From contig JAYJMM010000041.1 of the NCBI GenBank assembly GCA_037349105.1, positions 6,074,501 to 6,138,500 on the forward strand: a stretch of DNA of 64,000 nucleotides, given 5' to 3'. This document shows positions 8,283 through 62,520 of this stretch, one piece after another (within the stretch, counting starts at the first letter, position 1; the number at the start of each line of letters is the position of its first letter). Under the pieces are notes generated by a model. It was not told the origin of the DNA. It saw only the letters and a program-made list of their open reading frames with translations, and searched no databases. Position numbers and translations under genes: made by a program. This DNA comes from Limnomonas spitsbergensis (taxonomy: Eukaryota > Chlorophyta > Chlorophyceae > Chlamydomonadales).

Positions 8283-8908
8283 TTCAAGAGTGTAGGATTT
8301 GGTTTTAGGGTTCAGGAATCAGGATGAGGTGAGGGTTTAGAGGGGTTGACTTTATGGCATTGAGGGAGTTGTCCCAGGGCGCAAGGGTGCCTCCTGCATT
8401 CCCTTTTTCTGCTGCTACTGCTGTTGCTGTCACCGGTGCTCAAATGGCTGCTGCCACTGCTGCTGTTACTTCTGTTTCTACTGCTTCTACTGCTGCTCCT
8501 GATGCTGTAGCTGCTCTCGCTAAACTGCAACCCTCCCCCCTCGTTGCTCCAGGCTTTCTTGTCCCCAGGCACTGCCGTGCCCCCCCGGGCACTTGCTGTT
8601 GCTTCTGCTTTTACTGCTGGTTTTGGTTCTGGTGCTATCAATGCCTGAAAATGCCCCCCTCCCCCCCCTGCTGCATGATTTCTTATCCCAAAGAGCTGCC
8701 GTCCCACTCCCCCCCCCTCGAGTACCTCCTGCTTCTGCTATCGCTGGAAACGCCCCCTCTCTTTGCTGCAGGATTTCTTGTCTCCAGACGCTGCCGCCCC
8801 CCTCCCATGGGTATGTTGCTACCGCTTCTGATTCTGCTTTTGGTTCTGGTTCTGGTGCTTTCACCGACCCCCCCAGTCCCCCATTGCTACAGGATTTCTT
8901 GTCCCCAG
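8283..8908. repeat. Degenerate repeats carrying ECM29 acceptor copies
   Basis: Pyrimidine-rich sequence with runs of gctgct. It holds three decayed copies of the acceptor region of the next exon, around 8545-8600, 8665-8720 and 8762-8820. Each has a version of gatttcttgtccccag followed by gcgctgccgtcc. The fourth, intact copy at about 8885-8935 is taken as the real acceptor. Alanine-rich open frames here are by-products of the repeats. Confidence 0.6.
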
Positions 8909-11900
8909 GCGCTGCCGTCCCTCCGGGGTACCTCTTGCTGCTGGAAGGTGCCTTGTGTCGCGATTCGATTGGAGAGCTGTGCGCAACCGCCCTCCAGTCA
9001 ATGCTGGACACCGTGCTGTTGGACCAAAAGGCATTTAGCATGAGGTGGGAGGGAGGAGGGAGGGGTGGCAGTGGATGGTGGTGGTGGATGGTAGATGGTT
9101 GCAGCAGATGGTGGCAGTGGATGGTGAATGGTTGCAGCAGATGGTGACAGTGGGTGGTGAATGGCTGCAGTGGATGGTTGCAGTGGATGGTGGTGGTGAA
9201 TGGTGAATGGTTGCAGTGGATGGTGGCAGCGGGTGGTGAATGGTTGCAGTGGATGGTGACGGTCAATGGTGAATGGCTGCAGTTGATGGCGGTGGCTGGT
9301 TGTGAATGGTTGCAGTGGATGGTGTGGTGGTGAATGGTTGCAGTGGATGGTGGTGGTGAATGGTGAATGGTTGCAGTGGATGGTGGCAGCGGATGATGAA
9401 TGGTTGCAGTGGATGGTGGCAGCGGATGGTGAATGGTTGCAGTGGATGGTGGCAGCGGATGGTGAATGGTTGCAGTGGATGTTGGTAATGAACGCATTCC
9501 ACGCAGGGTGGTTGGTGCCAGTGGGTGGTGTGTGGTGACAGTGGATGGTGAATGGCTGCAGTGGATGGTGGTGGTGGATGGTGAATGGTTGTCGTGGGTG
9601 GTGACACTGTATGGCAAATGGTTGCAGTGGATGGTGAATGGTTGCAGTGGATGTTGGTAATGAACGCATTCCACGCAGGGTGATTAGTGCCAGTGGGTGG
9701 TGTGTGGTGACAGTGGATGGTGGTATTGAGTGGTGTGGATGACTCGAGAGTGTTGGTATTGGAAGGTGTGGGTGGCAGTGGGTGGTGGGGGTGTGATGAC
9801 GGTGGCTGGTAAGTCCCCTTGGTGTATGTTGAATGTTGTGTGTGTCGTCAGTGAGAGGTGATAGTGAGTGGTGACAGACGGCAGTAGATGGTGATCGGTG
9901 ACAGTGAGTGGTGGCAGTTGATGGTGATCGGTGCCCACCCTTGAAGGTACGCCTCTCGCACCGCTTGGTTACGGAGCTACCTCGCCCACTCGGATTCGGG
10001 CGTTCGCTTAGCTGCCGCCCGCCTGCTGGCGGCAGCAATCTCAGAGCTCGACGTCGCCTCGGTCTCCAGGCTGATGTCGGAGCTGACGGCGGCGTTCGGC
10101 AGCGTGGCGCCGCCAGCGCAGACGGGCGCTGCCGCCGCCGCTGCCGCGCTGGCGGCCGCCGCCGCCGCCACGCCCGCCGTGGCGCCCGCGGGAGCGGGCA
10201 CGGCCAAGGCAGCGGTAGCGAGCACCAAGTTCGAGGAGCAGGAAGGAAGCATCATGGCTGCAGGTGGGTGGGGACCCTTCACAGCAATTCCTAGCCTTTC
10301 AACAACCCTGGACCCTTGGAAACTTAATATACTGTTATGAACTCCCCTTGCCGATTCAATCCAGGCTTTCCAGAAATCCCTGAACCCTGCACCCTCAACC
10401 CTGAACCCTGAACCTTTGGATCCCGGCCGTATGCTGGCGTAGCCTTTCTTGAACCATGCAGTTTAAATACTCGACCTTTTCAAAGCCCTAAATCCTGATC
10501 CCCTATATCCTCAAGACCCGAATCCCTCACCCATGTCATGTGCTGGCCAAGTGCCTCGCATGCAAGGCACGTATCCTAGCTCCCAGCACACGTGCCTCAA
10601 CCCTAAACCCTTAGCATCTGAACCCCTTCAACCCTAAACCTTAAAACTCCCAGCCCCTCAATCTTTGTCCCTTATCCAGTCTCGGCCCCTTGACTCAAAA
10701 TCGTCAACCTCTCGGCCCAAAACCCCCTCGGCCCAAAACCCCCCAAAACCTTAACCCTTCATGTTTTGGCTGAAATCCCTTAAACCCTACACCCTTCCGC
10801 CACAGGCTACGTGCTGGCCCAGTGCCTGGCTGACAAACCGGCCGGCGTGGCCCTTTCCTCGCTCGAGGCCTGCGCCCGCGCACTCGCCGCCGCCTCACGC
10901 GCCGCCAACGGCAATCTCGCCGCGGCGGCGGTGTGCTCCCTGGCGCTGGCCAGCCTGCGCGGACCGCTCCCGCTGGAGGGCTGGGCGGAGGCGACCGCAC
11001 CAGAGGCGGCGGTGGAGGCAGCTGCAGCAGTCTCTGATATGGAGGTGGACACAAAGGCACCCGCAGACACGGCCGCGGCGGCGGCCCCCGCCGCCACCGC
11101 GGCGGCAGCGGCCGCTCCTGCTGCGACCTTTGCGCTCCTTCTACGTATCGCCGAGCTGCTCGGTGATAAGGATGTGAAGGTGGCGGTGCGTGCCGCCTCT
11201 GCCGCCGGCTTTCTGCTTTCCGGACATTTGGGTCGCGCGGCGCCGGGCGCCCGGCCGCTGCTCGAGGCGCTCTTCAAGCAGAGCTTCAACAAAGCGGAGG
11301 AGCTGCAGTTTACAGTGGGTGAGGCGGTCTCATATGCCTTCGGCGGCGTGCCCATCACGCCCGATCGCATCCTTCTGTCTAACTTCGGCGGCCTGGCCGA
11401 CGCGTTCAGCCTGCTGAGCACGGCCCACGCGCCCGGGGCGGCAGCCCCGGCAGCCGCTGCGAAAGCTGCTGCTGCCACCACCCCGGACGACGTCGCAGCC
11501 CTCGAGGCCGCAGCGGCCTGCGAGCGCGAGGGCGGCGCCGCGTTGGTTGGCACGCGGACCTATGTCTTGACGCGTCTCCTGGAGGAAATGGTGGTGCACA
11601 GCCGTGTGGAGGTGCGGTGTGCGGCCACTGTCTGGGTGGTGTCGCTCCTCACCTACTCTTCTGCTCCCTCCCCCCCAGTCCCCTCCCTACCCCCTCACCC
11701 GCTCCCCACCCTCCCTGCCTGCTCTCCCACTCTTCAGGTGCGGTGTGCAGCCACTGTCTGGCTGGTGTCGCTGCTCACCTACTGCCCGCGGGCGCCGCAG
11801 CTGCTCGCGCAGCTGGGCCGGGTGCAGCAGGCCCTAGGGCAGCTGCTGGGCGATCCGAATGAGCTCACTCAGGAAATGGCATCCCGCGGCATCTCGCTGG

Positions 11901-12088
11901 TTTACTCGCGCGGCGACGAGGCGACGCGCAAGGCGCTGGTTGAGGACCTTGTCGGGGTCCTGCAGGGCAGCGGCGCCAAGGCCAAGCCGATCAAGCTCTC
12001 CGGGGACACGCAGGTGCGCTTAGGCAGCTTTGATTGAATGTGAATACGTGTGTGCTGTACACAAGCACGCACATGCACTCACACACAT

Positions 12089-12135
<47 letters not shown>

Positions 12136-15100
12136 TACACACATTGGTATTCCCTACCGGTAATTGGATGACCGAAGTGGTAAGTGTCAGGGTGGTGCCG
12201 GTGGATGCTTAGTGGGGTCCCGTAGTCCTGAGAGCCAGGAAAACACATCTGATGCACCCACGGGCGGTACACAGTTGAAATCTGAATGTGTGAGTACATC
12301 CACACTTTATGTGCAACCATTTTGGTAACCCTAACGGAGAAGACTTAACCCTGACACGCAGGTCTTTGAGGATGGCGCGCTGGGTCGCGGCCCGCCCACG
12401 GGCGGTGCCGCCGGGTCTGGCGGCGCTGGCGGCGGCGGCGGCTCCTCGTCCTCCTCTGCAGACGGAGGCAGCCTCAGCACCTACAAGGAGCTGTGCTCCC
12501 TGGCCACGGATCTAGGTCAGCCGGATCTGATCTACAAGTTCATGGATCTAGCACACCACTCCCAGGCCATCAACACCCGCCGCGGCGCTGCTTTCGGTTT
12601 CGCCGGGATCGCCAAGCTGGCGGGCAGCCAGCTGACGCCCCACGTGGCGGCACTGATCCCCAAACTGTACCGCTACCAGTACGACCCCAACCAGAGGGTA
12701 CAGGTAAGGGGGGGGGGGGCTGGCAGGACAACTGTACTGCTGTATGGGCTTAGGCTTGTGTGGCGGCACTGATCCCCAAACTGTACCGCTACCAGTACGA
12801 CCCCAACCAGAGGGTACAGGTAAGGGGGGGGGGGGCTGGCAGGACAACTGTACTGCTGTATGGGCTTAGGCTTGTGTGGCGGCACTGATCCCCAAACCGT
12901 ACCGCTACCAGTAAGATTCCAACCAGAGGGTACAGTTGACCTGTCCCTATCTTGTCTCCCCCGCTTTCATCAGGATGCCATGGTGCACATCTGGCGTTCC
13001 TTGGTGGATGATCCGCGCAAGGCGGTGGATGAGCACTTTGGCCCCATCATGGCGGAGCTGTTGCGCGAGATGGGCGGCAGGTTGTGGCGCAACAGGCAGG
13101 CGGCTTGTACCGCCCTCCTGGATCTGTTGCAAGGGAGGAGGTAATTATTACAAAATTTAATACTAGTACCGGCAATTATTAATTCTTAAAGAATTATAAA
13201 TTGTCAATAAATGCCTTGTTTGGTTCGGCTTTCCACAGGTGGCCGGAGCTCAAGCCCTATTTCGAGCGCGTGTGGACCATGACGTTGCGCTGCTTGGACG
13301 ACATTAAGGAAACCGTTCGAAGGTCGGTTGGTGGTTTAGGGTTCATTATCGGGGTGGAGGTCAGCTGGTGGTTCAGGGCCAAGTCCCCCCCCCTCCCCCT
13401 TTCTCTCTTCCCCCCTCTCCTAGTCCCCAATCGGCTTCCTCCCTCCCTCCCTAAACCCTCCCCTTCTAAACCGTCCCTCCCTCCCTCCCCCTGCAGGCAG
13501 GCTATGTCTCTGGCCAAGTCCATGCGGGGTACCACCCTCCGCCTGGTGGACCCCCAGCACTCCCCTGAGGCCGAGTGCATTGAGGTGGTGGCCATGATGA
13601 TGCCGCTACTACTGGAACAGGTGGGAACGGGCTTGCCAAAGTGTGAACGTGTGTGGATGGCTTGTGGAAGTGTGAATGGTCGCATGCTGCCATTGTCCCC
13701 GGGGCGAAGTCGTGTGAATATGTGTGAACATGTGCGCAGGGCCTGGGCAGCAGCGTGAGGGAGGTGCAGGCGATTGCCCTGGACACTATCTCCAAGGTGG
13801 CCAAGGCTGCGCCTCTCAGCGCCCTCAGGGGGCAGCTGGTGCCGCTGGTGCAGGCCATGTTGGAGGGGCTGTCTTCGCTCGAGGATGCAAGGCTGAACTA
13901 CGTGGAGCAGCACGCCGAGCGGATGGGCTATGATCAGGAGAAGCTGGAGAGCGCACGTGTCGCCGCCTCGCGATCCTCTCCCATGGGAGACACATTGGAG
14001 ATCTGCTCCCGCTTCTCTGACCCCGCCTCTCTGGAGTTGATGGTCCCTATGCTGTCCAGCATCATCAAGCGTGGCATTGGCCTTAACACAAAGGTGGGAC
14101 CTCAGCTCTCTCACGACACTATTTTCTATCACACTCTCCCACGACACACTCTTTTTTATCACATTCTCTCACAACACACTATTTTGTATCACACTGTTTC
14201 AGGTGGGCACCGCCCGCTTCGTCCGCAGCCTCATGACGAGGGCCACCACGGCGGATGCGCGGCCCCACGCCCCGGCCCTGCTGCGTGCGCTCGTGGCCGG
14301 CGTGCGGGCGGAGCGCAGCGCGGCGGTGCGGAAAGCATACGCAGGCGCAGCGGCACAGGTCTGCAAGCACGCCAGCGAGAAGCGATTGGACAAGAGTGTG
14401 GAGGAGGCCTGCGCCCTCTACTCAGACTCGTCGGCAGACGCAGACTCAAAGTATGTTGGCGGCCTACATGCACGCACACACGCTTGCACACACATTTGTC
14501 AGTGCATCACCCACCCCTCTCTCCTCTGCCTACCTTTCCCCTTTTCCTCAGGTACGTTGGCGGTCTGCTCCTGCATGAGCTCCTCAAGGCCATGCCCGAG
14601 GCCTTTGCTGCCCACTCGGCATCCGTGCTGCCCCTCGCCTTCAGTGCAAAAATGGACGACACAGATTCGGAGGTTGCGGCCATATGGGCGGAGGTTGGTG
14701 CCGGCAACCGATGTCCCTATCTGTTGTTTCCACCAGCAACCTAGCAGCAACCTAGCAGCATGGATGGGGATTCACAGCAATCTAGCAGCAATCTAGCAGG
14801 TGGGGAACTAGGTAGCTGAATTGCGCTTGATGTCATGATGCAGGTCTGGGAGGAGGGCATCAGCAGCGAGGCCGGTGCGGTACGGCTGTACGGCTCCGAA
14901 ATTGTCAGCAGCCTTGTAGAGGGCCTCACCTGTGCCCAGTGGGGCAGGAAGCGATCTTGTGCCGAGGCCGTACTTCAGCTGACCAAGTTGGGGAGTGATG
15001 TGCTCTCCGGCCCGCATGCCTCCCGCCTCGCCTATACGCTGCTGGCCGAGCTGCCCGGGCGGCTTTGGGAGGGCAAGCGGGCGCTGTTGGCGGCCTTGGG

Positions 15101-18100: not shown

Positions 18101-19120
18101 GGGCTGTGCATTGATTTCTTTATCATGCACGCACCTAGTATATCCAATCCTTGATATTATTGTGCTGCTGCTGCTGCTGCCCCTGTTGAGATATTATTGT
18201 GCTGCTGCTGCTGCTGCTGCTGCTGCCCCTGTTGAGATATTATTGTGCTGCTGCTGCTGCTGCTGCTGCTGCCCCTGTTGAGATATTATGCTGCTGCTGC
18301 TGCTGCTGCCCCTGTTGAGATATTATTGTGCTGCTGCTGCTGCTGCTGCTGCCCCTGTTGAGATATTATGCTGCTGCTGCTGCTGCTGCTGCTGCCCCTG
18401 TTGAGATATTATGCTGCTGCTGCTGCTGCCCCTGTTGAGATATTATTGTGCTGCTGCTGCTGCTGCTGCTGCCCCTGTTGAGATATTATGCTGCTGCTGC
18501 TGCTGCCCCTGTTGAGATATTATTGTGCTGCTGCTGCTGCTGCCCCTGTTGAGATATTATTGTGCTGCTGCTGCTGCTGCTGCTGCCCCTGTTGAGATAT
18601 TATTGTGCTGCTGCTGCTGCTGCTGCTGCCCCTGTTGAGATATTATGCTGCTGCTGCTGCTGCTGCTGCTGCCCCTGTTGAGATATTATGCTGCTGCTGC
18701 TGCTGCCCCTGTTGAGATATTATTGTGCTGCTGCTGCTGCTGCCCCTGTTGAGATATTATGCTGCTGCTGCTGCTGCCCCTGTTGAGATATTATTGTGCT
18801 GCTGCTGCTGCTGCCCCTGTTGAGATATTATTGTGCTGCTGCTGCTGCTGCCCCTGTTGAGATATTATTGTGCTGCTGCTGCTGCTGCTGCTGCCCCTGT
18901 TGAGATATTGTGCTGCTGCTGCTGCCCCTGTTGAGATATTATGCTGCTGCTGCTGCTGCCCCTGTTGAGATATTATGCTGCTGCTGCTGCTGCCCCTGTT
19001 GAGATATTATTATGCTGCTGCTGCTGCTGCCCCTGTTGAGATATTATTGTGCTGCTGCTGCTGCTGCCCCTGTTGAGATATTATGCTGCTGCTGCTGCTG
19101 CCCCTGTTGAGATATTATTG

Positions 19121-19154
<34 letters not shown>

Positions 19155-19308: not shown

Positions 19309-19342
<34 letters not shown>

Positions 19343-26846: not shown

Positions 26847-29800
26847 TCAGAACTCCAGGAATTTGTCAAAATAGACGCAGGTCTGCGGTGAGATGACGCC
26901 CCCTTCCCGGCAGTCGTTGAACACCGGACAGACGCCGCAGGGTATCGACGTGAAGGCGGTGGTGGGCGGGATGCTGTGCACTGCGGGGCGGAAGTGGTCG
27001 TCCAGGTCGTCGGCGCCCTCGCCATCCACCTGACACGGTGCGGGGGGAGATGCGGTGAAAAAACTACATTCAACATCCTTCACGGAGGGTGGTGGCGGAT
27101 GCATGTTCTTGGAGTGCAACAACTGACAGCACTGATTCCTCACGCTGCAAGAATTGACAAAACTGATTTCTGCACCCTCCCCCCCCCCTTGCTTCAACAA
27201 CTGACAACTGACAACACATATTTCCGCCCCCTCCCTTCCCCCTGCCGTAACAACTGACACCTGACAGCACTGATTCCCCTGCTGCAACAACTGACAAATG
27301 ATAACCTTCTTCACCCCTTCGCTCCGCAATCCCGCCTGATTCCTCATCCCCGCTCAATTGCGCTCCTCGTCCTGCCTTGTCCATGCATCCATCCTAGGAT
27401 TGAAGGCTTAGGGTTGAAGCTTTAGGGTTCAGGGTTTAGTTGCGCTTCTCATCCCGCCTGGTTCACACATCCACCCTAGGGTTTAAGGCTTTAGTTGCAC
27501 TTTTAGGGTTAAGGCTTTAGTTGCACTTTTAAGGTTGAGGCTTTAGTTGCACTTTCAGGGTTAAGGGTTTAGTTGCACTTTTAAGGTTAAGGCTTTAGTT
27601 GCACTTTTAGGGTTAAGAGTCTAGTTGCACAATTAGGGGCAAGACGTAAGAGTCTAGTCGCACGCTTAAGGTTAAGGCTTTGATTTAACTTTTCGTCTCA
27701 CCTGATCTACGCGTCCATCGTACATGAGCGTGTTGACGACGGATTGGATGTCCTCCTCTCGGAGATCCACCTGAGCAGCCAGGTGTGGCAAGCCATACAT
27801 TATTCATGCTGCTTCAGCTACACGGTTCAGCTACATAGATTGGACGGATTGGATGTCCTCCTCTCGGAGATCCACCTGAATTGAAGTTGGCACAAAATGG
27901 CAGGACGTCATATGGTCATGAATGTTTTGTTACCCAAATTCTCCCAATTGAAGATCCTTATGAGACAGCAGCCAAGTGTGGCAAGCCATGGATAATTGAT
28001 GGTGCTTCAGCTTTACGGTTCAGCTACACGGACTGAATGTCCTCTTCTTGGACATCAACCTGCGAGACAGCAGCCACGTGTGCCAGGCCACTGGTTATTA
28101 AGGTGCCTCAGCTACACAGTTCAGCTACACGATGCAGCTACGCAATTCAGCTGCAGGGTTAGGTTGCACGGTTCAGCTTTACGGTTGAGCTACGCGACTA
28201 TTCACACCAACTTTTCACCTAGGGTTAAACAATGTAGGATTCCAAATTCTAAGGTTGCAAGTTCGAACAATGACGATGAATCGGCCTCGACATAAAATCT
28301 TCAACCCCACAACCCAGGGGTCAGAGGCAGTTGGCAGCCTTTATTGAAGTGCAAGCCAGACCAACTTTGCGGGTTTGCAGGGCGGCCACCATTGTGCCCA
28401 TGGGAACTCATTTTTTCAAGCCTCCCTTCTGTGCCCCCTTTTCTGAGCCCCCTTCCTCTGAGCCCCCTCTGCTGGGCCCCCCTTTTTTGAGCCCCGCTTC
28501 TTTGAGCCCCCCTCTTTAAAGCCCCCCTCTTTTAAGCCCCCCTCTTTTAAGCCCCCCTCTTTTAAGCCCCCCTCTTTAAAGCCCCCCTCTTTCAAGCCCC
28601 CCTCTTTTAAGCCCCCCTCTTTTAAGCCCCCCTCTTTTAAGCCCCCCTCTTTTAAGCCCCCCTCTTTTGAGCCCCACACTTCCGAGTTACCTCTTCCCAG
28701 CCCCCTCCTCTCAGCCCCCCTGTGACCCCTCCTCTCAGCCCCGCCCTTCCCAGCCCCCTCCTCTCAGCCCCCCTGTGACCCCTCCTCCTGGTTCACCTTC
28801 GAAAATCCCTTGTTCTTGATGAACAACGCCACCTCGCGCAGCGTCGTGTCGCCCTGCCTCTGTATGTATTTGAAGCAGGCCTCTCGCAGCACCTCAATGA
28901 ACTCCGCGTCAAACTGGTTCTCAGTGTACCTTCATCACACACACACCCGCCATATCAAAGGGGGTAAAACCTTAAACCTAAACCCTAAACCATGCCTGTT
29001 TCAAGCGTTGACCAAAGCGGAAGTGGGACAAGCATCAGCTAAAGCTACGGGGCAGGCTGCCAGGCTGCCATCACTGGGCCAAACGGGGGAACACAACTTA
29101 ACCAGCTATCAGCTGGGAGCCCAGGCCAGGCAACTAAAGGGTTTGCTGCACCAAGCCCCCTCGGCCGTAGGCCGTGATGTGGCTGACAGCCGTAGGCCGT
29201 GATGTGGCTAACAGCCGTAGGCCGTGATGTGGCTGACAGCTGTAGGCGTGATGTGGTTGACAGCTGTAGGCGTGATGTGGCTGACAGCCGTAGGCGTGAT
29301 GTAGCTGACAGCTGTAGGCGTGATGCAGATGACAGCCGTAGGCGTGATTTGGCTGACAGCCGTAGGCGTGATGTGGCTGACAGCTGTAGGCGTGATGTGG
29401 CTGACAGCCGTAGGCGTGATGTGGCTGACAGCCGTAGGCGTGATGTAGCTGACAGCTGTAGGCGTGATGCAGATGACAGCCGTAGGCGTGATTTGGCTGA
29501 CAGCCGTAGGCGTGATGTGGCTGACAGCTGTAGGCGTGATGTGGCTGACAGCCGTAGACGTGATGTGGCTGACAGCCGTGGGCGTGAAGTGGCTGACAGC
29601 CGTAGGCGTGATGTGGCTGACAGCCGTAGGCGTGATGTGGTTGACAGCTGTAGGCGTGATGTGGCTGACAGCCGTAGGCGTGATGTGGCTGACAGCTGTA
29701 GGCGTGATGTGGCTGACAGCCGTAGGCGTGATGTGGTTGACAGCTGTAGGCGTGATGTGGCTGACAGCTGTAGGCGTGATGTGGCTGACAGCTGTAGGCG

Positions 29801-42178: not shown

Positions 42179-45100
42179 ATGGGCAATGTAGACGGGGGCG
42201 GAGGCGACGCCAAGGACATGCAAAAAAAGCGGAAGCGGAATCGCAGCAAGGGAAAAGCTGAGCCTGAAGAGGCATCGGCAGTCTTGGCTGCTAAGCATGG
42301 TGAGCAGGCTCACAAGTCAGTTGTTTTAAAGTGTGAACGTGCGCCGGCCTAACGCTCCTGTTCTGTCCTGCGGCAGCTCCCTCGCCGGGTAAGCCAAAAG
42401 GCAGTTCGAAGCAGCTGGTTAAAGCAGCGAGTGTGATGGTTGCCAAGCCGGACAAGCTGAAAAAACAACAAGCCATGGAAAAGGTCGGTCATGTCGCCGG
42501 CTCGACGCGCCTCATGCTGTCTCATGGAGAGAGGGGGTGGTGAGGAAGTAGTCAACCTTGTGGAGAAGTGAAGCACTCTCTCATGCAAACTGTCATGCCT
42601 GCATGGCGCTCCCTGCCAGTGTCTGTCCGTGCTTGTGTCAGCACGCAAATCATAAAGACCGTCTCCTTCAGCCGGCTGTTGGGTGGCCGGTGACCACAGT
42701 AGGTCTAAAGTAACCAAAATATGACTGGCCTCTTGCCGGTGACACATGCAGCAGGGCCTGCAGCAACAACAGCCCCACGTCAACAGGCCATCTTGTAACT
42801 GGATTGTAGCTGTATCTGGCTGCAACTCACGGCCTCCAGCCAGGTGTAGCACTGTCATTGCCTCCTCAACATATCCCAAGGGATACGATACACTGTCCAT
42901 GATATCTACGTACATCAGTGTACGTCTGTACAGCCTTAGACGTTATACCAGGGCTGGCATCTGCCTCCCCGGAAGCAAGCTGAAATGAAAGGTGATGGCT
43001 CCCTACCTTGCGCACAGAAGCAGGCCCCTACCAAAGCTGCAAAGAAGGCTCCCACAGCCCCTCCCGCCCAAGAGGAGGAGGAGGAGGAGGAGGAAGAGGA
43101 GGATGAAGGTGGAGAGGGAGGTGAAGGCGAAGACGATTTTAACTCTGAAGACCTTGACAGCTTTGTGGAGAAGGGCGAGGGGGAGGACGAGGACGACGAG
43201 GACGACGAGGCGGCGGATGAGGAGGCGGAGGTGGAGGCGGATGCAGAGGCGGCTGTTGAGGCCAAGAAGTCCTCAAAGAAGCTCAAGGTGACAGGCAGGC
43301 ACTCATACATGCGTGGAGCCATGAAGGCAGGCATGGAGACAAAGAGGGATGGGGGTGTTCAGACATGCGTGGAGGAATTTAGGCAGGCATGCATGGCGGC
43401 ATGGCGGCATTGAAGCCTGAATAGAGGCATGGTGGCGTGGAGCCATGGAGGCATGCATTGAGGAATCTAGACATGTGTGGCGGTATTCAGGCATTCAGGA
43501 ATTCAGGAATTCGGGCATGCATAGAGGCATTCAGTCAGGCAGGCATGGTGGCATTCAGACATCCAGGCATTGAGGCACGGAAGCTTGCTGGCATGCTTAA
43601 GAGGCATTCAGACAAGCATGGATGAAGGCATGGAAACTTGCTGGCATGGAGGCCGGCAGGTATATGTGACGGCGAACAGGCCCGCCAGCCTGCAGGGAGG
43701 TATGGAGGCTTGGAGGCCTGGTGGTGGCATGCATGCATGGAGGCATGGTGGCTTACTGGCTTGCAGAGTTGCAGGCATGGAGGCATGCATGGAGGCATGG
43801 TGGCTTACTGGCTTGCAGGCATGGAGGCATGCATGGAGGCATGGAGGCTTACAAGCATGCATGGAGGCATGGTGGCTTACTGGCTGCATGCATGGAGGCA
43901 TACATGGAGGCATGCATGGAGGCATGCTTGGAGGCATGCATGGAGGCATGCATGGAGGCATGCTTGGAGGCATGCATGGAGGCATGCATGTTCTCAAGCA
44001 GCTGCTTTGTTTGATGAACAGGCTTCAGGATTGAGAATGGGCCTCAAGCAGCTGAACATACTACACAATCCAGGCATTGCCTCCATCTGCTGCATCTGCC
44101 CGCTAACACTTGCCACTCCTACACCCTAAACCCTAAGCCCTACATTAAAACCCTAAACCCTCAACTTCCAACCTGCGATCAGCCGCCCCCTCCCGAAATC
44201 ACGCGCCATGGGCGGCACTCCACCTTACGTCTCTGCAGCTGAGGATATTCGATGACACGCAGGGATACTGCTGGTGGGCGGTGACCAGTGGGCTGGGAGC
44301 CCCACCTTCAGTCCCCTTGACACACACATGCTCTGTCTGGCCCTCTTGAAAAAGGCTTTAGGTGGCTGCGTTAACTCTGTGACAACGATGATGCACTTGC
44401 AGAAGGTGCACATTGAGGACGAGAAGGACAACGTTCCGGTCAGCAAGGGCGGGTTTGAGAGGGAGACGGTGGCGGCTGCCGATGGCGTTGAGCGGCAGCA
44501 CGCGTCAGTGTCCGGCATCATGAGCACTGCGGACTTTGACAGCTTGAACCTCACGGGGAGCACCCAGAAGGTGATTCGAATGGCTGTTGGGGTGGGCCCA
44601 GAAGGTGATTTGAATGGCGGCTGGGGAGCATCCATAATGTGATTTGAATGGCGGGTGGGGAGGGCCCAGATGGTGATTTGAATGGTGGTTAGGGAACACT
44701 CGGATGGCGGTTTCAATCAAGATTTGAATGGTGGTTGGGGAGCCCCCCCCCCTCAAGATTGTATTAGTGGCTGGGGAACTCTCACATCTCACATGGTGAT
44801 TTGAACGGTGGTTGGGGAGTCCTCAGAAGGTGATTCGAATGGTGGATCAAGGGCTAAGCGATAGGAATGGTCAGGTCATTGTTGTGATTCGGATAACACT
44901 AAACTACTTGCATAAACAATGCTGTCTCAGTGTCTCCTGAGCCTTGATGGGATGAGGGTTGAGGATTTACAGCGCCCCTGCCCTACCCAAGCCCTGAACC
45001 CTGAACCCGCAGTGATATTTGGTATTAAGGTTAGCGGCCTCTGGTTAGCGGTTCCCCTGGCCTGCCCAAACCCTTGACATTAAACCCGTGGTGATTTGTG

Positions 45101-48100
45101 GGTTAATTGTCCCCTGCCCTGCACAAAGCCTTAACCCTTAACCCGTGGTGGTTTGTGATTTTTTCAGGCTGTGACTGAGCTTGGGTTTCAGTTCATGACG
45201 GAGGTACAGGCCAGGACCATTCCCGCCCTGCTCACTGGGAGGGACGTGCTGGGAGCGGCAAGGACAGGTGGGTGTAGGGTTTAGGGTTGGGGCTGAGCAG
45301 GGGGAGGTTGTCCTGCTCACTGGGAGGGACGTGCTGGGAGCGGCAAGGACAGGCAGGTGTAGGGTGTTGGGTGCAGGTTTGAGGTTTAGGGTTGGGTATG
45401 GGTAGGGGGCAGGTTGACTTGCTCACTGGGAGAGACGAGCTGGGAGCGACAAGAACGTGTGGGTTCAGGGTGTAGGGTTGGGGAGCAGGGCAGTGCCCAG
45501 GTGGTCCCGCTGCCTCGCTAGCTCTAGCATGGAGGGACATGTTGGGAGCAGCAGGAACACGTGGTTCTAGGGTTGGGGTGGGGCATGGGGTAGGGCATGG
45601 GGCAGGTCGTCCTGATGCCAAGTTCAGGGTTCAGGGCGTACGGTTGGGGGGCAGTGAAGATGGGGGTAGGTCATCCTGCTGCCTAGTTCAGGGTTTAAGG
45701 TTTAAAAATCAGGGTGTACGGTGGGGGGTAGTGAAGAAGGGGGTAGGTCGTCCTGCTGCCTAGTTCAGGGTTTAGGGTTAAGGGTTTAGGGTGTACGTTG
45801 GGGACAGTGAAGAAGGGTGTAGGTCATCCTGCTGCCTAGTGTAGGGTTCAGGGTTCAGGTTGTACGTTGGGGGGCAGCGAAGAAGGGGGTAGGTCATCCT
45901 GCTGGACCCCCAGGCCTTGCTTGTGACCTGGTTCCTTGCTTGTGACCTGGTCCCTTGCTTGTGACCTGGTCCTTTGCTTTTGTTTTCAAGTTGAAACGAT
46001 AATTTCACATGCCCTGCCCCGTCCGCCCTCCCCAGGCTTTGGCAAGACCCTGAACTTCCTGATCCCCTGCTTTTCTTTACCGATTCATAATGTGAACCCC
46101 GTTCTCCCCAGGCTCTGGCAAGACCCTGGCCTTCCTGATCCCCTGCATCGAGCTCATGTACCGCGCCAAGTTCATGCCCCGCAACGGCACCGGCGCTGTG
46201 GTCATTTCACCGACGCGCGAGCTGGCCATGCAGATTTACGGCGTCGCGCGCGACTTGATGAAGCATCATAGCCAGACGCACGGGCTTATCATGGGCGGCG
46301 CAAACCGGCGCACGGAGGCTGAGCGGCTGATCAAGGGTGTCAACTTGATTGTCGCGACGCCTGGTCGCCTGCTGGACCACCTGATGAACACGCAGGTAAA
46401 CCCTGATGCACACGCAGGTTAACCCTGATGCACGCGCAGGTAAACCCTGATGCACACGCAGGTAAACCCTGATGCACACGCAGGTTAACCCTGATGTACA
46501 CGCAGGTTAACCCTGATGTACACACAGGTACCCTGATGCACGCGCAGGTTAACCCTGATGCACACGCAGGTAAACCCTGATGCACACACAGGTAAACCCT
46601 GATGCACACGCAGGTTAACCCTGATGCACGCGCAGGTAAACCCTGATGCACGCGCAGGTAAACCCTGATGCACGCGCAGGTAAACCCTGATGCACATGCA
46701 GGTAAACCCTGATGCACGCGCAGGTAAACCCTGATGCACACGCAGGTTAACCCTGATGCACGCGCAGGTAAACCATGATGTACACGCAGGTAAACCCTGA
46801 TGCACACGCAGGTAAACCCTGATGCAGACGCAGGTTAAGGGTGCTGGGTATACCCTGATGGGTCGTGAGGTCAACCCCTATGAACACGCAGGTAAAACCT
46901 GATCAGTAGGAAGTTAAACCCTGATCGACACGCAGGGGACTTCATCGGCTCACTCTTGCGACAGGGCCGAAAGCTTGTCATGTTTCATTAACGGCTCAGT
47001 TATGTTCCATTTAGCGCCGTGGTGTTTTGTTTTTTGTTGTGGACGTTTGGGTCTAGCCCGCTGCTGCGACGGGCCCGGCTGCGATGGCCTCCGTTGCAAA
47101 TTACATGTCATATTTCTGGAAGTGCTTGAAGACTTACATGCCTCCTTCCGCGCCTGGCCATCTCTGGGGGCAGATGGTGACCAAACCTTGGCCGCCCCAT
47201 GGCTGGTGGCGCAAGCATTGTGCACCTCGCTGCTGCTAAACCCTAAACCCTGAACCCTAAGCCCCACCTTGCAGCCTTCTGACCTCACGTACGATAGGGT
47301 ATCACCGTTCGCGGGATGGTGCCCGAGTGAGCTGCTCCCTGAAGCCTCGCATTCTCAAACCCTAAACTCTTACGCAGGTACGCCCCTAACCCTGGCCGTA
47401 ACCTCTGAAGCCTGACCCTGGCCCTGTACCCAAAACCCTGAACCCTGGCCTTAAACCCCGAACCCTGGCTCTAGACCCTGAACCCTGGCCTTAAACCCTG
47501 AACCCTGGTTATGTACCATAAACCCTGAACCCTGGCCTTAAATCCTGAACCCTGGCCATATGCCCTAAACCCTGAACCCTGGCCCTAAATTCTTAACCCT
47601 GGCCCTTGACCCTGAACCTTGAACTCTTGCCTGTTAACCTGCAGGGCTTCATCTTCCGTAACTTGGCTTGCCTGGTGATCGATGAGGCCGACCGCATCTT
47701 GGAGATTGGTTTCGAGGAGGAGATGCGACAGATCATCAAGATCCTGCCCAAGGAGAGGCAGACCATGCTCTTTTCGGCGACGCAGACCACAAAGGTGCGC
47801 TCAGGAAATCCTGACGTCAAATCCTGAAGACTCTGAACCCTTGACCCTTAACCTAAACCACAGGTGCGCTCGGGAAACCCTGACATCAAATCCTGAACCC
47901 TAACCACAAAGTTGCGCTTAGGGAACCCTGACCTCAAATCCTTTACCCTAAACCACAAAGGTGCGCGCAGGAAACTTTGACGTCAAATCCTGAAGACTCT
48001 AAACCCTTGAACCCTACGCAGACCACAAGGGTGGAAGAAGAAAACCCTTAGGCCCTAAACCCTAAACCTTAAGACCCTTAGCCCTTGAACCCTTTTTAAT

Positions 48101-51100
48101 CTACAGGTCGAGGACCTGGCGCGCATCTCCTTCCAGAACAAGCCGCTGTACGTTGGTGTCGACGACGACCGCAGCGTCTCCACCCGCGAGGGGCTGGAGC
48201 AGGGCTACTGCGTGGTGCCTGCCGACAAGCGCTTCCTGCTGCTCTTCACTTTCCTTAAGAAGAACATGAACAAGAAGGTGGGCATGAAACGGACCATGAA
48301 CATGAACTTGGACATCAACAAGAAGGTGGGCATGAGACCGAACATGAACTTGAACATGAAGGGTGTGATGAAGTCGCTTGGATCTGCAGTTCTCCTGCTT
48401 TGCCGCCGCCTCGGCGCAACGGAGCTCCTTCTGGTACCCAGCCTTACTCCATCTGGTGTCTATCCCGACACTTATTGGTAACGAGTCCCTCACTTTCTGG
48501 TACCGACCCCCACGCTCTCCGGTAACCAGCCCCACACTTTCCGTTACTTAGCCTCACACTTTCTAGTACTGTGCCCCACACTTTATAATCTTACATGCAC
48601 CGAATCCATCCAATAGTAAGGCACCTCTGCATGTCTGCATTTTCACTACCGGTACAGCTGTTTAATATTGTACTGATCTGCGTTTTCAAACATGGTAGTG
48701 ATCTGCGTTTGTAAACATGGTACTGATCTGCGTTTTTTAACATGGTACTGATCTGCGTTTTCAAACATGGTATTGATCTGCGTTTTTAAACATGGTACTG
48801 ATCTGTGTTTTCAAACATGGTACTGATCTGTGTTTTGAAACATGGTACTGATCTGCCTTTTTGAACATGGTTCTGATCTGCCTCTTTAACCATGCTACTG
48901 ATCTGCCGTTTTCCTTCCCCCCCTCCCTGCTCCCCTCCCCTACATTATGTACTCCCAGCAAGTCATCCTCATGGTTTTCCCATGGCATCCCAGCAAGTCA
49001 TGGTTTTCTTCTCCTCCTGCCATGCGGTCAAGTTCCACTTCGAACCAGTCCTCTCCCCTGCTCACCCCTCCCCTACATTATGTACTCCCAACAGGTCATG
49101 GTTTTCTTCTCCTCCTGCAATGCGGTCAAGTTCCACTCCGAGCTGCTCAACTACATTGACATCCCTACCAAGGACATCCACGGGAAGCAAAAGCAGCAGA
49201 AGCGCACGACCACCTTCTTCGAGTTCTGCCAGGCGGACAAGGGCACGCTGTTGTGCACGGACGTCGCGGCAAGAGGCTTGGATATCCCAGGTGAGCCAGC
49301 ATTCCATCTTTGGGGGTTTAGGGTTTATGGTGGAGTAAATTAGAGAGGCTTGGACATCCCAGGTGGGCCAGCGGTCCATCTTGGGGGGGTGAGGGTTTAG
49401 GGTTTAGGGTGGAGTAAATAAGAGCGGCTTGGTCATCCCAGGTGGGCCAGGGGTCCATCTTGGGGTGGTGAGGGGTGGAGGGTTTGGGGCGGAGTAAATG
49501 AAGAGGCCTGGACATCTCAATTGGGCCGGAGGAGCGAGGGGTCAAATCTCTTCCCCTCCCCTTCCCTCCCTCCCCTCCCCTCCCCTCCCTCCCCTCCCCT
49601 CCCCTCCCTCCCTCCCCTCCCTCCCTCCCTCCCCTCCCTCCCGTCCCTCCCTCCCCTCCCCTCCCCTCCCCTCCCTCCCCTCCACCAAAGCCGCGATCAG
49701 CATTATAGTCGTATAGCACACTTCAGCTGCTCTGTAGGTTCCTCCAGGCCCATCCTGCAATGCCTCCTAAAGGCTGCTGCTGCTGCTGCTCCTGCCCAGC
49801 TGATAGCTGCTGCCCCTGCCGCCCTGCCCCTGCCCCTGCCCTACTGACGGCTGCTGCCACCGCCGCCCTGCCCCTGTCCCTGCCATGCTGACGACTGCTG
49901 CCACCGCCGCCCTGCCCCTGCCCCTGCCATGCTGACGGCTGCTGCCCCTGCCGCCCTGCCCCTGTCCCTACCCTGCTGACGGCTGCTGCCACCGCGCCCC
50001 TGGCTGCTGTGTGCCCGCAGCTGTTGACTGGATCATCCAGTACGACCCCCCGGACGACCCCAAGGAGTACATCCACCGCGTGGGCCGGACGGCGCGCGGC
50101 AAGGAGGGCCGCGGTCGCGCTCTGCTGCTCCTGATGCCCGAGGAGCTGGGCTTCCTCAAGTACCTCAAGCAGGCTAGGGTGCGCTGGGTTAAGGGCTTAG
50201 GGTTTAGGTTTCAGGGCTTCCCGAAATCAAACATGGGTAACTGATTGGAGACGACATTCAGCTGTATGGTTCAGCTGTATGGTTCAGCTGTACGGTTCAG
50301 CTGTATGGTTCAGCTGTATGGTTCAGCTGTATGGTTCAGCTGTATGGTTCAGCTGTATGGTTCAGCTGTATGGTTCAGCTGTATGGTTCAGCTGTATGGT
50401 TCAGCTGTATGGTTCAGCTGTATGGTTCAGCTGTATGGTTCAGCTGTATGGTTCAGCTGTATGGTTCAGCTGTATGGTTCAGCTGTATGGTTCAGCTGTA
50501 TGGTTCAGCTGTATGGTTCAGCTGTATGGTTCAGCTGTATGGTTCAGTTGTATGGTTCAGCTGTATGGTTCAGCTGTATGGTTCAGCTGTATGGTTCAGC
50601 TGTATGGTTCAGCTGTATGGTTCAGCTGTATGGTTCAGCTGTATGGTTCAGCTGTATGGTTCAGCTGTATGGTTCAGCTGTATGGTTCAGCTGTATGGTT
50701 CAGCTGTATGGTTCAGCTGTATGGTTCAGCTGTATGGTTCAGCTGTATGGTTCAGCTGTATGGTTCAGCTGTATGGTTCAGCTGTATGGTTCAGCTGTAT
50801 GGTTCAGCTGTATTTTAGTTACAGCAGGGCCTTTTGGCTGACAGGGCCTGAAGCAGCTATGCGTCTGCTGCTTGGGCAATGGGTCAGGGTTACATGTCAA
50901 TGTTTGGTCCCCATCAGCTGATAGTTGCGGCTACCCAGGGGCCTGCCCAGGGTGGTAGGGTTCGCTCTGAAACATAATTGGCTTCGCTCGGGAAGCGTGA
51001 TGATTTTGTCTCCTGCACCGCGGAACCGTTGTTTGGTCTCACGCTCCGAGGAACCCTGTTTTCGTCGGCCGCTTTTATGAGGTGAAACCGCGCAGAGTTT

Positions 51101-55809: not shown

Positions 55810-58092
55810 ATGCAGGACGCTGAATCCGTCCTGTCGCGCCTGGACCAAGCCGTTGAGCTGTTGCAAGGAGAGCCGACAGACAGTGCTTCCTGGAATGGTG
55901 ATGAAGGCTTTGATTTCATTTCATAAATACAGAGGCTGCTCATATAGTTCTCTGGCTCTTTACGTTTTGATGCCATGCATGGCACTTTGACACCAAATCC
56001 GCTCCATCTCGTACATCTCGTCATAACGTGTTTGGCCAACGCCTATAGCTAGCTACTGGCGAAGAAGACACCAATACTCAGAAATCGCACCCTGACACTG
56101 GCTCCATGCGCAGATGCTGTGCAAGACTTCGCCGCATGCACTGCAGAGCTAGACCTCATGCTCAGCAGAGCACCAGAATCCAGCAGTCAGACCAACGAGG
56201 AAAAAGTAAGAGAAGTAAGTGACATCAGGGGCTTGCATTGTGCTCTGCTTCTCAGGCCGTCACAAAGACACACCCACATGGTTCTGCGCATGATTAAGGC
56301 AGATGGAGCATGGCAGGGGCGCATGAGGAAAGTTGACTATGGAATTCAACATGGCATGGCACATGGTACAGACGAATCAGCAAAGATGACTTCGGATGTT
56401 AACAAGGAATGGCTTGGCACGAGGCTTAAGGCTGTGGGGCTAATGTACCGTAGACGTCCTTTGCCTCCGCTATTTGTTTTGCCATCGCGCCTTATGAAAA
56501 CTGCAACTTCGGCGGGAAACGCCACTTTTGGGATGTCAAAAGAAGTTCTCCAGTGAAGCGCGCTTTTGCACTAAACTAAATTTATTTCTCGTCCGCAGAG
56601 GCAAAACAAGTCTACAGTATGCAGTACATGTCTCAAACTCATTGCTTTCACTGCCGTCCATCCTGCTGGTAATTATCTGTTCCTGAACGTCACAGGAAAT
56701 CGCAGCTCTGGAGCTGGAGCTTGTATCCAAGGTGATTCTGACTGCTTGGCTTCCTCGGGCATGGGCTAAAAATCATTCCCCTGGATAACTGGATTTAATT
56801 AGGTGAAATCAGCCGCTGAACTCATGGAAACGGAAGGGCGCTGTGCTGGTGCTGGATTTTGACCAGTTTATGCTCATAGAGCGCCGCAGGCAAACCTTTG
56901 GGGCTGCCGGGCGGCCACCAATGGGCAATGGCCTAACATTATAAACTAAGCTCAAGCGACAGGGCATGCCGCACCAGGGCCCCCAGGCCCAGGAATGTAG
57001 CTTAAGTGTGAAGTATAGCTGAATTGCGCAACACGTAACTGTCTTAGAAATGACCTTGAACGATCACGCCTTCATGGCCCATTCACTGGATGACCTGCTC
57101 GTCGTATCTTAAATGGAGCTCAAGTGCACTATAATTAACGACCTTCGACACGGCATTGATGATCAAACCTTCGAACATTTCCCCCCAGGGTCATGAAAAA
57201 CTTCTACTGTAGCTGTCGTGTAGCTGAAATGCGCCACAGTGGCCTGCCTGAAGCATGTCTCTGAACGATCATGCCTACATTCCCCATGCTCAGGAAAACT
57301 TTCTACTGTGGCTGATGTATAGCTGAAATGCTGCAGAAATGCGCCACAGTGAACTGCCCAAAGCATGATCCTGAAAAATCATGCCTTCATTCCCTGCTAC
57401 TATGATAACCTGCTACTAAAACTGACGTGTAGCTGAAAGATCATGCCTTCATTCCCTGCTACTATGATAACCTGCTACTATAACTGACGTGTAGCTGAAA
57501 AATCATGCCTTCATTCCCTGCTACTATGATAACCTGCTACTATAACTGACGTGTAGCTGAAAGATCATGCCTTCATTCCCTGCTACTATGATAACCTGCT
57601 ACTATAACTGACGTGTAGCTGAAAGATCATGCCTTCATTCCCTTTGCATAGGATAACCTGCTACTATAACTGACGTGTAGCTGAAAGATCATGCCTTCAT
57701 TCCCTTTGCATAGGATAACCTGCTACTATAACTGACGTGTAGCTGAAAGATCATGCCTTCATTCCCTGCTACTATGATAACCTGCTACTATAACTGACGT
57801 GTAGCTGAAGATCATGCCTTCATTCCCTGCTACTATGATAACCTGCTACTATAACTGACGTGTAGCTGAAAGATCATGCCTTCATTCCCTTTGCATAGGA
57901 TAACCTGCTACTATAACTGACGTGTAGCTGAAAGATCATGCCTTCATTCCCTTTGCATAGGATAACCTGCTGGATGTGGCGCAACAGCAAGTGAATAAAT
58001 GGCAGCAAGTGTGCAAGCAGCTGAAGGAGCAGCACGAAAAGAGCATGTTCGATGGGATAAATGGAGGCAGCGGCCGGCCACAGCCCACTTGA
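55810..58092 (+). CDS. Small coiled-coil protein, possibly Mediator MED28-like
   Basis: Exons 55810-55897, 56114-56214, 56696-56731 and 57961-58092 (TGA) join in phase at GT-AG sites to about 118 residues. It begins MQDAESVLSRLDQAVELLQ. The second half, VREEIAALELELVSKDN then LLDVAQQQVNKWQQVCKQL, is a heptad-like coiled coil; the tail is Gly/Pro-rich. The arrangement (acidic helix, Glu-rich joint, then K/R-D-LL, then W-Q-Q-V) resembles the C-terminal half of Mediator subunit MED28 as I remember it. The N-terminal half shows little to confirm this, so another small coiled-coil protein is possible. Donor 56215 (gtaagt) was preferred to 56206 because it is a better consensus and adds VRE. The first exon may be missing. 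The intron before exon 4 is a tandem array of the acceptor. Confidence 0.55.
57390..57975 (+). repeat. ~61-bp array of the exon 4 acceptor, ~10 copies
   Basis: Each unit contains aaagatcatgccttcattcc, either ctttgcatag or ctgctactat, then gataacctgctactataact and gacgtgtagctg. Exon 4 itself starts ctttgcatag/gataacctgctgg at 57961. At least four units (about 57640-57960) repeat the complete acceptor and first eleven exon bases. Confidence 0.95.
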
Positions 58093-58380: not shown

Positions 58381-58430
58381 TAAAAAAGGAACTAAAAGGA
58401 AGAGGATATCCTCTTGTTGACAAGTAAGAA

Positions 58431-58871: not shown

Positions 58872-59177
58872 TTTCAGAAGCCATGATGATTGCACCACAG
58901 TAGGTCAATAACATAACACCTCTGGGCCCTGCTAGGCAAGGCTTGGCCGCGTGGGGGTGTGATGTCATTGACTTGGTAGGACGAGGAACTGTTGTGTTCA
59001 GAATTCTCACTGCACAACACTTTAATTTTACACATGCTGTCTGTACCAAGTCTGATGAGTTGACACTCTGGCCCAGCGGGACTGCTCTAGCCTCCCAGGT
59101 TGGATAGGCGAAAGGTTGGGTTTAGGTAGATATGGACCATTTCCACCAGGCTACAGCATGTTTACATTTGTGTTGGT
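58872..59177. other. Flank downstream of histone H4
   Basis: Holds one retroelement end motif (about 58900-58955) and otherwise nothing recognised. Confidence 0.5.
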
Positions 59178-59193
59178 GGTGTTGAAAAACACC
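59178..59193 (-). terminator. Histone 3' stem-loop, H4
   Basis: On the minus strand ggtgtttttcaacacc: six-base-pair stem, four-base loop, 35 bases after the H4 stop and followed by accaac. This is the replication-dependent histone mRNA 3' stem-loop format (recognised by SLBP). It has the same 16 bases as the H3 one. Confidence 0.88.
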
Positions 59194-59227
59194 GGTTTGG
59201 GTTAAGGAGCTCCAAGCTGGGAGCTGT

Positions 59228-60191
<964 letters not shown>

Positions 60192-60227
60192 GTCTCCCAG
60201 GCCTGTCTACACATAACTTGTCTATAC

Positions 60228-61262: not shown

Positions 61263-62141
61263 CTACCCTGCTGCCGCCGTCTGTGCCAGCATGCGCGCCA
61301 CCAGCGTCCGCACTTGGCCATCGTTCAACCTCTCGGAGCTCTGTATCGCATTCAGGACCAGGATCACCGTCGAGGGTGACGTGGCCTGCACCCACACCCT
61401 GCCATTGACACCAGCTGCCAACTCAAATTGAAGGGATGCGCCCAGGGCCTCTAGGATGGGCGCCTGGGGACTGGTGAGGAGTCTCCGGGCAGTGGCTGTC
61501 GACACGGACGTCACTGCACCCTCCTTGAGGTGGCCAAGCCCAGCAGCTCTCCCTGTGGTAAAAGGAGCGGGCAAAGGGGTTCAGGGAACAAAAAAACTCC
61601 TTTCCGTGGCTGACAGGGATGAACAGCAGGATATGAGCAGCAGGGTGTGGGAATGAAAAGCCACTTCCCATGCACCGAGACAAGTAGAAGGGTTAAGGGC
61701 GACCCTCCCTTTGCCCAGAGGTGAAGGGAGCAAGCAAAGGGGGTGAGGGAAGTGTACCCCCCATCCCGTTCCTCAGCAGCAAGTAGGTCAAGCAATTGGG
61801 TTGAGGGAACTTTACTTCCCCTCCTCGAGCCACAGGCTCACAACAGAGGGGGAAATAAGAGCTACAGAAGAAACAACTCGTGGTCACAAGGGCGAGGCAC
61901 ACCAAGGCCCCTGTCACCTAGGGGGTCGGACCCATCCCCATCCCCCGGCCTGTCATACAGGATGCACACCTGCGGCATCCACGCAAGTCAGCACAGGCTC
62001 CATGTCTCTACTGGCAGCGGCCACCCGCGCATACACCACGTCGCCAGCCTTGAGGTTCGGTCGATTCCTTTTGGTCGCACCCTCAAACGAAAGCTGGGGC
62101 AGCAGCGCTGAGAAAGGGCCGTTGATGTCCACGACAAAGTT
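61263..62141 (-). CDS. RRP40: Exosome cap subunit RRP40 (EXOSC3), C-terminal part
   Basis: RRP40 is one of the three S1/KH cap proteins of the RNA exosome, which threads RNA for 3'-5' decay and rRNA/snoRNA trimming. Two minus-strand exons are visible: 62141-61970 and 61552-61263 (TAG), joined in phase through a split Gly codon, about 153 residues. The first exon carries the S1-domain end: QLSFEGATKRNRPNLKAGDV, then DMEPVLTCVDAAGR. The second is the KH domain with GVNGRVWVQATS, the family's G-NGR-WV motif. The N-terminal roughly 100 residues should lie to the right, beyond the arrays and the window edge. The intron upstream of 62141 repeats the acceptor junction. Confidence 0.92.
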
Positions 62142-62520
62142 CTGGGGCGAGGCGGACGGGAGGGGGGTTTAGGGTTTAGGGTTTGGGCGAGTGGGGGTGA
62201 GGGGGATGGGGGGAGGCGAGAGGGGGGGCGTGAGAGGGAATCGACCGTGTTTTCAAGCAGTTTCAGCTATAAAGTTCTGGGGCGAGGCAGGAGGGAGGGG
62301 GGGAATGTGGGAGGGAATTGTCCGTGTTTTCAAGCAGTTTCAGCTATAAAGTTCTGGAGCAAGGCGGGAGGGAGGGGGGGGAATGTGGGAGGGACGGGGG
62401 AAACAGGCGTAGCTGCTTGAGGCTCCGGCAGTAGGTCTCGAGGTTTGGTATGAGCCCAATGGTGGCCACCCAGTAGCCTGCATTCGGTGTTCTCAAGTAA
62501 GGCGGGAGGGAGGGGGGGAA
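62130..62520 (-). repeat. RRP40 acceptor junction repeated ~3-4 times
   Basis: The junction reads on the + strand aaagttctggggcgaggcgg. It recurs as ataaagttctggggcgaggc (62270) and ataaagttctggagcaaggc (62345), each followed by gggagggaggggggg, and more weakly near 62495. ttttcaagcagtttcagc also recurs before each copy. Confidence 0.88.

Follow-up and report, generated by a model that had tools for sequence, protein, structure and literature searches.

Many introns in the snow-alga-like genome of the green alga Limnomonas spitsbergensis contain, besides the splice junctions they apparently use, additional copies of these same junctions, each joining bases of the adjoining exon to a splice site. 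The pattern was followed in a stretch of 64,000 nucleotides, hereafter the window (contig JAYJMM010000041.1, contig 41 of the assembly, positions 6,074,501-6,138,500), which holds the genes ECM29, RPC34, HAS1, Med28 and RRP40 as well as an ELIP-like gene, and in chaperonin genes on other contigs. At a strict threshold, 26 of 66 introns carry such decoys (14/39 in the window, 12/27 elsewhere). The copies also occur in other genes, reach a limited depth into the exons, decay in a regular order and, at acceptors, keep a minimum distance from the used site, which is itself preceded by an AG-depleted zone. This is probably the outcome of a boundary-blind tandem duplication that fills introns and extends into exons by at most about 60 nt, splicing acting as a filter on the survivors.

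The sample covers one genome and 66 introns. The assembly totals 260,226,709 bases in 124 contigs; excerpts of the genome paper give 124 contigs, 260.248 Mb and a GC content of 54.15%, and refer to RNA-seq and IsoSeq reads (PMC11228838). The window was read for gene models apart from parts of its long repeat arrays, and 15 exons were seen for ECM29, 7 for RPC34, 12 for HAS1, 2 for RRP40 and 3 for the ELIP-like gene; a gene previously described only as coiled-coil is Med28 (PF11594), and the identity of RRP40 was confirmed via PF21262. Altogether, the models contain 37 complete introns and a further two that are partial but have a known acceptor. Fourteen ECM29 junctions are gap-free in an alignment with five green-algal orthologues, and six RPC34 junctions in an alignment with four, single orthologues showing small indels a few residues from junctions; for ECM29, junctions 12-14 are missing from one orthologue, and conservation is poor around junction 13. 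The RPC34 protein, whose closest counterpart found is that of Chlamydomonas eustigma (80% identity), aligns to solved RPC6, and eight of the 11 HAS1 junctions (introns 4-11) lie inside the part aligned to solved HAS1, none of them at a gap, introns 1-3 being uncovered. For Med28, RRP40 and ELIP, junctions were placed from an open frame and Pfam only.

Outside the window, 27 introns of 11 TCP1/Cpn60-family genes were taken from other contigs, their junctions being placed by profile continuity. Of 52 neighbouring exon pairs, 27 were used and 25 dropped (profile gap, no candidate, or, for two C62 pairs, a placement judged unsafe); one C119 pair was hand-placed from its paralogue, and partial PF00118 matches on C82, C84, C97, C102 and C114 were left out. 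Combined splice scores are weak for five of the pairs retained (C61 331 and 1683, C106 314, C37a 280, C37b 310), and none of these has a decoy at the strict threshold. For a further 200 kb of the assembly, the analysis covered coding content only. The paralogous pairs C39/C99 and C36/C119 are not independent.

Junctions were tested by comparing 30-nt exon-end segments with the adjoining intron, 285 segments from exon interiors serving as control. In the window, 15 of 76 junctions reached p<=0.01 where 0.8 were expected (donors 5/37, acceptors 10/39). The strict threshold was set at a score of 28, the 99.5th percentile of non-cognate scores being 27, and at this level decoys were found for 20/66 acceptors and 8/64 donors. 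The own intron beats all 16 non-cognate introns for 20/64 exon-start and 9/64 exon-end segments (3.8 expected), and for exon starts and exon ends alike the signal has faded to background at a depth of 45-60 nt in the exon. On the other contigs, the non-cognate test singles out 11/27 acceptors and 3/27 donors, and the comparison with exon interiors 6/26 acceptors and 2/26 donors at p<=0.01. Three cases on which the methods disagree or the copy is weak were left out of the count: ECM29 intron 10 (junction test p=0.007, yet no copy in array alignment), the partial RRP40 acceptor (two copies in array alignment, yet p=0.60) and RPC34 intron 4 (p=0.007, with one weak copy 8.7 kb away). The sequence-only reading that preceded this work had located junction copies in ECM29, RPC34, HAS1, the gene now known as Med28 and RRP40, and had taken the pattern to be genome-wide and present on either strand; with RRP40 doubtful, this holds for the window and for the 11 genes elsewhere, copies occurring on both strands and on other contigs. 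Its observation that ELIP introns stand apart was equally correct, as neither of the two has a decoy.

The copies number from one extra to about 20 per junction, with the maximum in HAS1 intron 6, close to the two to about 22 counted by eye. In the 19 arrays of the window, donor decoys consist of an exon end followed by GT, retained in 28/33 copies, and acceptor decoys of AG followed by an exon start, the AG being retained in 14/26; this is the composition that had been described. Selective loss of the decoy sites was considered and rejected, GT retention being close to what overall identity predicts and six of the AG losses being one variant common to the Med28 copies. Mean identity of the exon part is 0.91 for donor and 0.89 for acceptor copies. 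Sixteen arrays have two or more usable copies, and the copy nearest to the junction is better preserved than the farthest in 13 of them, worse in one and tied in two, so that the decay with distance noted earlier recurs in 13 of 14 informative arrays. Head-to-tail copies of 10-150 bp units are seen both by Tandem Repeats Finder (TRF) and by self-alignment, as in minisatellites and other tandem repeats, and the arrays add length to their introns, as had been proposed. The conserved protein requires the outermost splice site, so this site, in line with the earlier view, is apparently the one used, a conclusion that depends on protein conservation.

Acceptor decoys lie at a distance from the used site. 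In 20/20 introns, the nearest one and the used AG are separated by 62-271 nt, and in 19 of these by 62-164 nt. For interior segments, by comparison, 68 of the 141 tested have an upstream copy, of which 22 lie closer than 60 nt, against 0/20 for acceptor decoys (P=0.0023); counted by intron, the median copy distance is below 60 nt in 14/26 introns (P=5e-5 versus acceptor decoys), and 3/8 donor decoys also fall below this limit (P=0.017 versus acceptors). The AG dinucleotide is absent 3-13 nt upstream of the used AG (0/660), and its frequency rises to 0.011 at 13-23 nt, 0.023 at 23-33 nt, 0.044 at 33-43 nt and about 0.05 beyond, which is the depletion that characterizes an AG-exclusion zone under first-AG choice; as to a branch-point motif, CTNAY rises only faintly at 20-50 nt. 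Distance floor and AG depletion are consistent with selection against those decoys which the spliceosome would encounter first, farther ones being tolerated.

A few introns may themselves have arisen by duplication. In ECM29 intron 3 (126 bp, 11612..11737, plus strand), the first 46 nt copy the start of the downstream exon in register, with 43 identical positions, and the resulting score of 32 compares with a maximum of 10 among 4032 mismatched pairs. Weaker in-register copies occur in ECM29 intron 10 (101 bp, 14451..14551, plus strand; score 9) and in the C37b intron at 4091 (score 8), each equalled by about one of the 4032 mismatched pairs; ELIP intron 2 is borderline (score 5), and the remaining 60 of 64 introns are negative. 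Over the 64 introns, the signature has a permutation p<1e-4, driven by ECM29 intron 3. Since the start of this intron copies the exon start, its donor is itself an exon-start duplicate, and, judged from its sequence, the intron clearly appears to originate from a tandem duplication, ECM29 intron 10 and the C37b intron probably having the same origin. By reading, ECM29 intron 3 is stop-free in frame, and five orthologous proteins have no insertion at junction 3, which shows only that the segment is non-coding there. The mirror signature, an intron end copying the end of the upstream exon, is not above chance over the 64 introns (p=0.36), ECM29 intron 4 alone standing out with a 9-base match; the three introns may therefore be rebuilt introns or insertions of spliced cDNA.

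How could such arrays accumulate without disrupting the genes? A general process of tandem duplication with units of roughly 20-140 bp, presumably driven by slippage, unequal exchange or template switching, would disregard exon-intron borders. Whenever a unit spanned a junction, the exon would stay intact provided that the outermost site remained in use, and the inner copy would become a decoy within a longer intron; repeated rounds would then produce an array whose newest copy adjoins the real junction. Selection would act as the filter: units lying wholly within exons would mostly be purged, as would acceptor decoys closer than about 60 nt, in or near the zone between branch point and AG where the first AG tends to win, while those farther away would be tolerated. 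Occasionally, a duplicate could supply a donor and thus give rise to a new or rebuilt intron.

The sequence-only reading had gone further, holding that introns grow specifically by duplication of their own junctions, and this part was not supported by comparison with the rest of the intron. Leaving aside arrays longer than 1 kb, 45% of intron bases lie in repeats, compared with 26% in intergenic DNA and 9% in exons. The rate at which 30-nt segments have a copy in their own intron is 20-49% in the intron interior and 36% at the exon start, and reaches 0/54 at +90; on the acceptor side the profile passes smoothly from intron to exon, and on the donor side a level of about 40% declines to 15% at the exon end. 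Other controls give 35% inside versus 24% at the exon start on the acceptor side, and 38% versus 15% on the donor side. Terminal copies provide a fair comparison because an array can extend into an exon by one unit only, and in 49 introns their rates differ from those of the interior by +0.11 for acceptors (0.265 vs 0.154; 95% confidence interval -0.03 to 0.25) and by +0.04 for donors (0.163 vs 0.126; -0.08 to 0.17). A base-level duplication profile with an apparent depletion at junctions was also considered and does not decide the matter, as the same one-unit limit leads one to expect a fall at the border. Interior segments are thus copied at least about as often as junctions, and the terminal-copy differences are non-significant. 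The check that had been proposed, junction repeats against other intron repeats, gave a divided answer: per-segment and terminal-copy rates reveal no clear excess, whereas a simulation of the placement of repeat families does (P=0.008). What survives of the original interpretation is that repeats occur at junctions far above chance, and not that junctions are clearly a privileged substrate; the duplication process appears mainly border-blind, with a modest preference for junctions possible.

Several results weigh against duplication that is border-blind and filtered by splicing. The placement simulation just mentioned finds 17 junction-spanning families (one intron counted twice) where 10.5 are expected, an excess that we think arises because selection holds the exon copy constant, which may prolong the time over which it can be recognised to as much as about double that of an intron copy. 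A purely blind process would predict no bias between the two types of junction, yet outside the window decoys are present at 11/27 acceptors and 1/27 donors (P=0.002); the asymmetry is P=0.018 overall and absent inside the window (9/39 vs 7/37, P=0.78). Repeats are denser in introns than in intergenic DNA, of which eight stretches range from 0.00 to 0.94, and this spread, together with the decoy-free ELIP introns, makes the process an uneven one. As AGs are near normal from 33-43 nt onwards, the exclusion zone does not fully explain why the interval of 43-61 nt is free of decoys. Lastly, the nearest decoys of the C99 intron at 7005 (own exon at 9/11 sites diagnostic versus the paralogue, paralogue-like at one) and of C36 (own exon at 4/4 such sites) track their own exon and therefore arose after gene duplication, but the decoy of the C99 intron at 4241 agrees with its own exon at none and with the paralogue at three sites, and C119 gives 2/2 and 1/3; with some decoys mixed or paralogue-like, decoys kept arising, yet not all are young. 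The family-level excess, the higher terminal-copy rate at acceptors, the strong acceptor bias outside the window and the usually better preservation of the nearest copy would all suit a mechanism aimed at junctions, in which, for example, breaks or template switching at splice motifs, R-loops or RNA-templated repair would duplicate them preferentially and account for most intron growth. Such a mechanism is nevertheless rather unlikely, given that the paired terminal-copy difference is non-significant and copies internal to introns occur no less often than those at junctions, that the largest intronic arrays (24-, 25-28-, 34- and 13-bp units) stay out of exons, the 34-bp one stopping 5 nt short of an acceptor, and that arrays of the same kind occur in some intergenic stretches.

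Other explanations concern the decoys rather than the duplication. If they were useful, serving error correction or recursive splicing, a decoy acceptor with GT directly behind it would regenerate a donor, and splicing would walk on to the last acceptor. Ten of the 20 introns with acceptor decoys are indeed followed by an exon starting with GT, and the usual distance of the nearest decoy (62-164 nt in 19/20) is similar to the lengths seen among the seven shortest introns (75-126 nt). However, GT starts, which make the acceptor AG|GT and are found after 17/39 introns in the window and 28/66 in the whole set, are not significantly enriched (10/20 vs 28/66, P=0.43), exons without them have decoys at similar distances, and the AG is lost in 12/26 decoy acceptors with both bases aligned, all of which leaves such a function very improbable. 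Hardly better placed is the idea that decoys are relics, either of spliced-cDNA insertion or of intron birth from a duplicated intronless exon as in the Rogers model: the three introns whose donor copies the downstream exon start (ECM29 intron 3 with 43/46, ECM29 intron 10 and the C37b intron at 4091 more weakly) agree with it, but most decoys join intron and exon bases, a combination absent from spliced cDNA, and the mirror signature stays at the chance level overall. As for an artefact of assembly duplication or wrong exon ends, a 116-bp unit in ECM29 is 97% identical between copies and long-read assemblies can mishandle repeats; the exon-part identities given above mean, however, that most copies have diverged, and wrong exon ends, named beforehand as what could overturn the pattern, do not apply to the junctions of ECM29, RPC34 and eight of HAS1, which alignment fixes. 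This last explanation is largely refuted and extremely improbable. Border-blind duplication filtered by splicing remains the preferred account.

In ECM29 (plus strand), three decoys, each an acceptor with the exon start, stand ahead of the used acceptor of the exon that begins at 8893 (8531..8924); a decayed exon-start copy lies in intron 2, 271 nt ahead of the used exon start at 10806 (10520..10570); and the donor array of intron 5 (12644..12935) consists of 2.5 copies, at 97%, of the 116-bp unit, which includes 60 exon bases and the donor. RPC34, on the minus strand, has acceptor arrays in intron 5 (27738..28062; nearest decoy 105 nt off, exon bases 33/33 identical), intron 3 (37983..38216; decoys 107 and 170 nt off) and intron 1 (41158..41473; 138 and 272 nt off). 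HAS1, on the plus strand, has donor arrays in six consecutive introns: 4 (44555..44845; 34-bp unit), 5 (45227..45904; decoys 85, 191 and 293 nt off, with 531 of 844 intron bases belonging to the family), 6 (46379..46936; 22-bp unit, 20.8 copies by TRF, GT kept in 14/15 scored copies), 7 (47786..48093), 8 (48264..48360; 48-bp unit) and 9 (49272..49527; 72-79-bp unit). The same gene has an acceptor duplication in intron 5 (46028..46146; decoy 76 nt off) and an acceptor array in intron 8 (48932..49141; decoys 98 and 133 nt off, both without AG). Med28 intron 3 (plus strand, 57057..57971) contributes an acceptor array with about 10 copies of a 62-bp unit. The acceptor array of the partial RRP40 intron (minus strand, 62136..62521) involves only about six exon bases, is under the strict threshold and is doubtful.

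The window also contains much longer arrays and other features. A 41-bp satellite (1-8273, about 201 copies at 97%) precedes the first ECM29 exon seen and may lie within that gene; G-rich 25-28-bp and TGC-rich 34-bp arrays occupy ECM29 intron 13 (15984-17951 and 18153-19979), the 34-bp one ending 5 nt before the next exon; and a 24-bp minisatellite of about 313 copies (29164-36677, 7.5 kb) lies within the 8.9-kb RPC34 intron 4. Degenerate CCCTAAA-type repeats are common by eye in the introns of the window, and telomere-type CCCTAAA repeats form the start of contig 1 (about 1-860). Divergent intronless genes named by eye as histones H4 and H3 are present at 59153-60192, with an Rfam match to the histone 3' stem-loop at 59153-59198. 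A dispersed repeat at 22060, 52409 and 60609 contains CCATGTTCCTGCCCCC exactly three times (0.1 expected); by eye, the similarity extends further and a head near 60520 resembles a tRNA. The repeat is possibly a short interspersed element, although an ARAGORN scan for tRNAs found none. On another contig, part of the intron stretch of the C119 chaperonin gene may resemble the C-terminal region of a hAT-type transposase.

Published intron gains by tandem duplication are the nearest relatives of the L. spitsbergensis pattern, as far as passages of one source describe them: in a potato RNA-dependent RNA polymerase gene, the 3' part of an intron was duplicated together with the 5' part of the next exon (PMC4974935), which is the layout of the acceptor decoys, and the Rogers model and the ATP2A1 case of Hellsten 2011 are described in the same place. 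There as here, a duplication supplies splice sites, but in those cases a single event creates a new intron, whereas in the alga an old intron is mostly lengthened and the copies persist as decoys, in 26 of 66 introns. The AGGT arrays of fission yeast, with a 24-bp exonic unit in SPOG_01682 and SOCG_00815 (Zhu and Niu 2013, as reported in passages of PMC4974935), repeat a short unit whose copies the intron spans, and closely resemble the array of 22-bp units in HAS1 intron 6; they occur in isolated genes, in contrast to the many genes of L. spitsbergensis. Searches of the open-licence PubMed Central literature turned up no report of genome-wide junction decoys, nor are they mentioned in the intron, exon, splice and tandem passages of the L. 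spitsbergensis genome paper (PMC11228838). The arrays share unit size, head-to-tail order and range of copy number with minisatellites and intronic tandem repeats, from which they differ in that their unit contains a splice site along with coding bases, yielding an array of decoys subject to a distance rule. Introners are another recurrent source of new intron sequence in algae, by dispersed copies of one family, whereas here the copies in each intron stem from its own junction; regarding sharing of the introner type, 20/64 exon-start segments match their own intron above 16 non-cognate ones, which tells against it in a comparison that included no all-against-all intron search.

The origin of new intron sequence is a long-standing question for which proven cases are few, and the rules of splice-site choice, such as proximity of competing donors, first-AG choice and exon context, are known mainly from constructs. 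With copies of their own splice sites in about four of ten examined introns, the filtering of tandem duplications by splicing becomes measurable, and the decoy introns represent many natural tests of these rules. A bolder view, put forward only tentatively, is that the alga continually makes and lengthens introns by junction-spanning tandem duplication, about 40% of the introns examined carrying decoys and a few being caught at birth, that the distances of acceptor decoys record the search window of the spliceosome, and that acceptor junctions are possibly favoured. If this reading of continual growth were true, L. spitsbergensis would offer a natural, replicated experiment on splice-site choice and intron growth.

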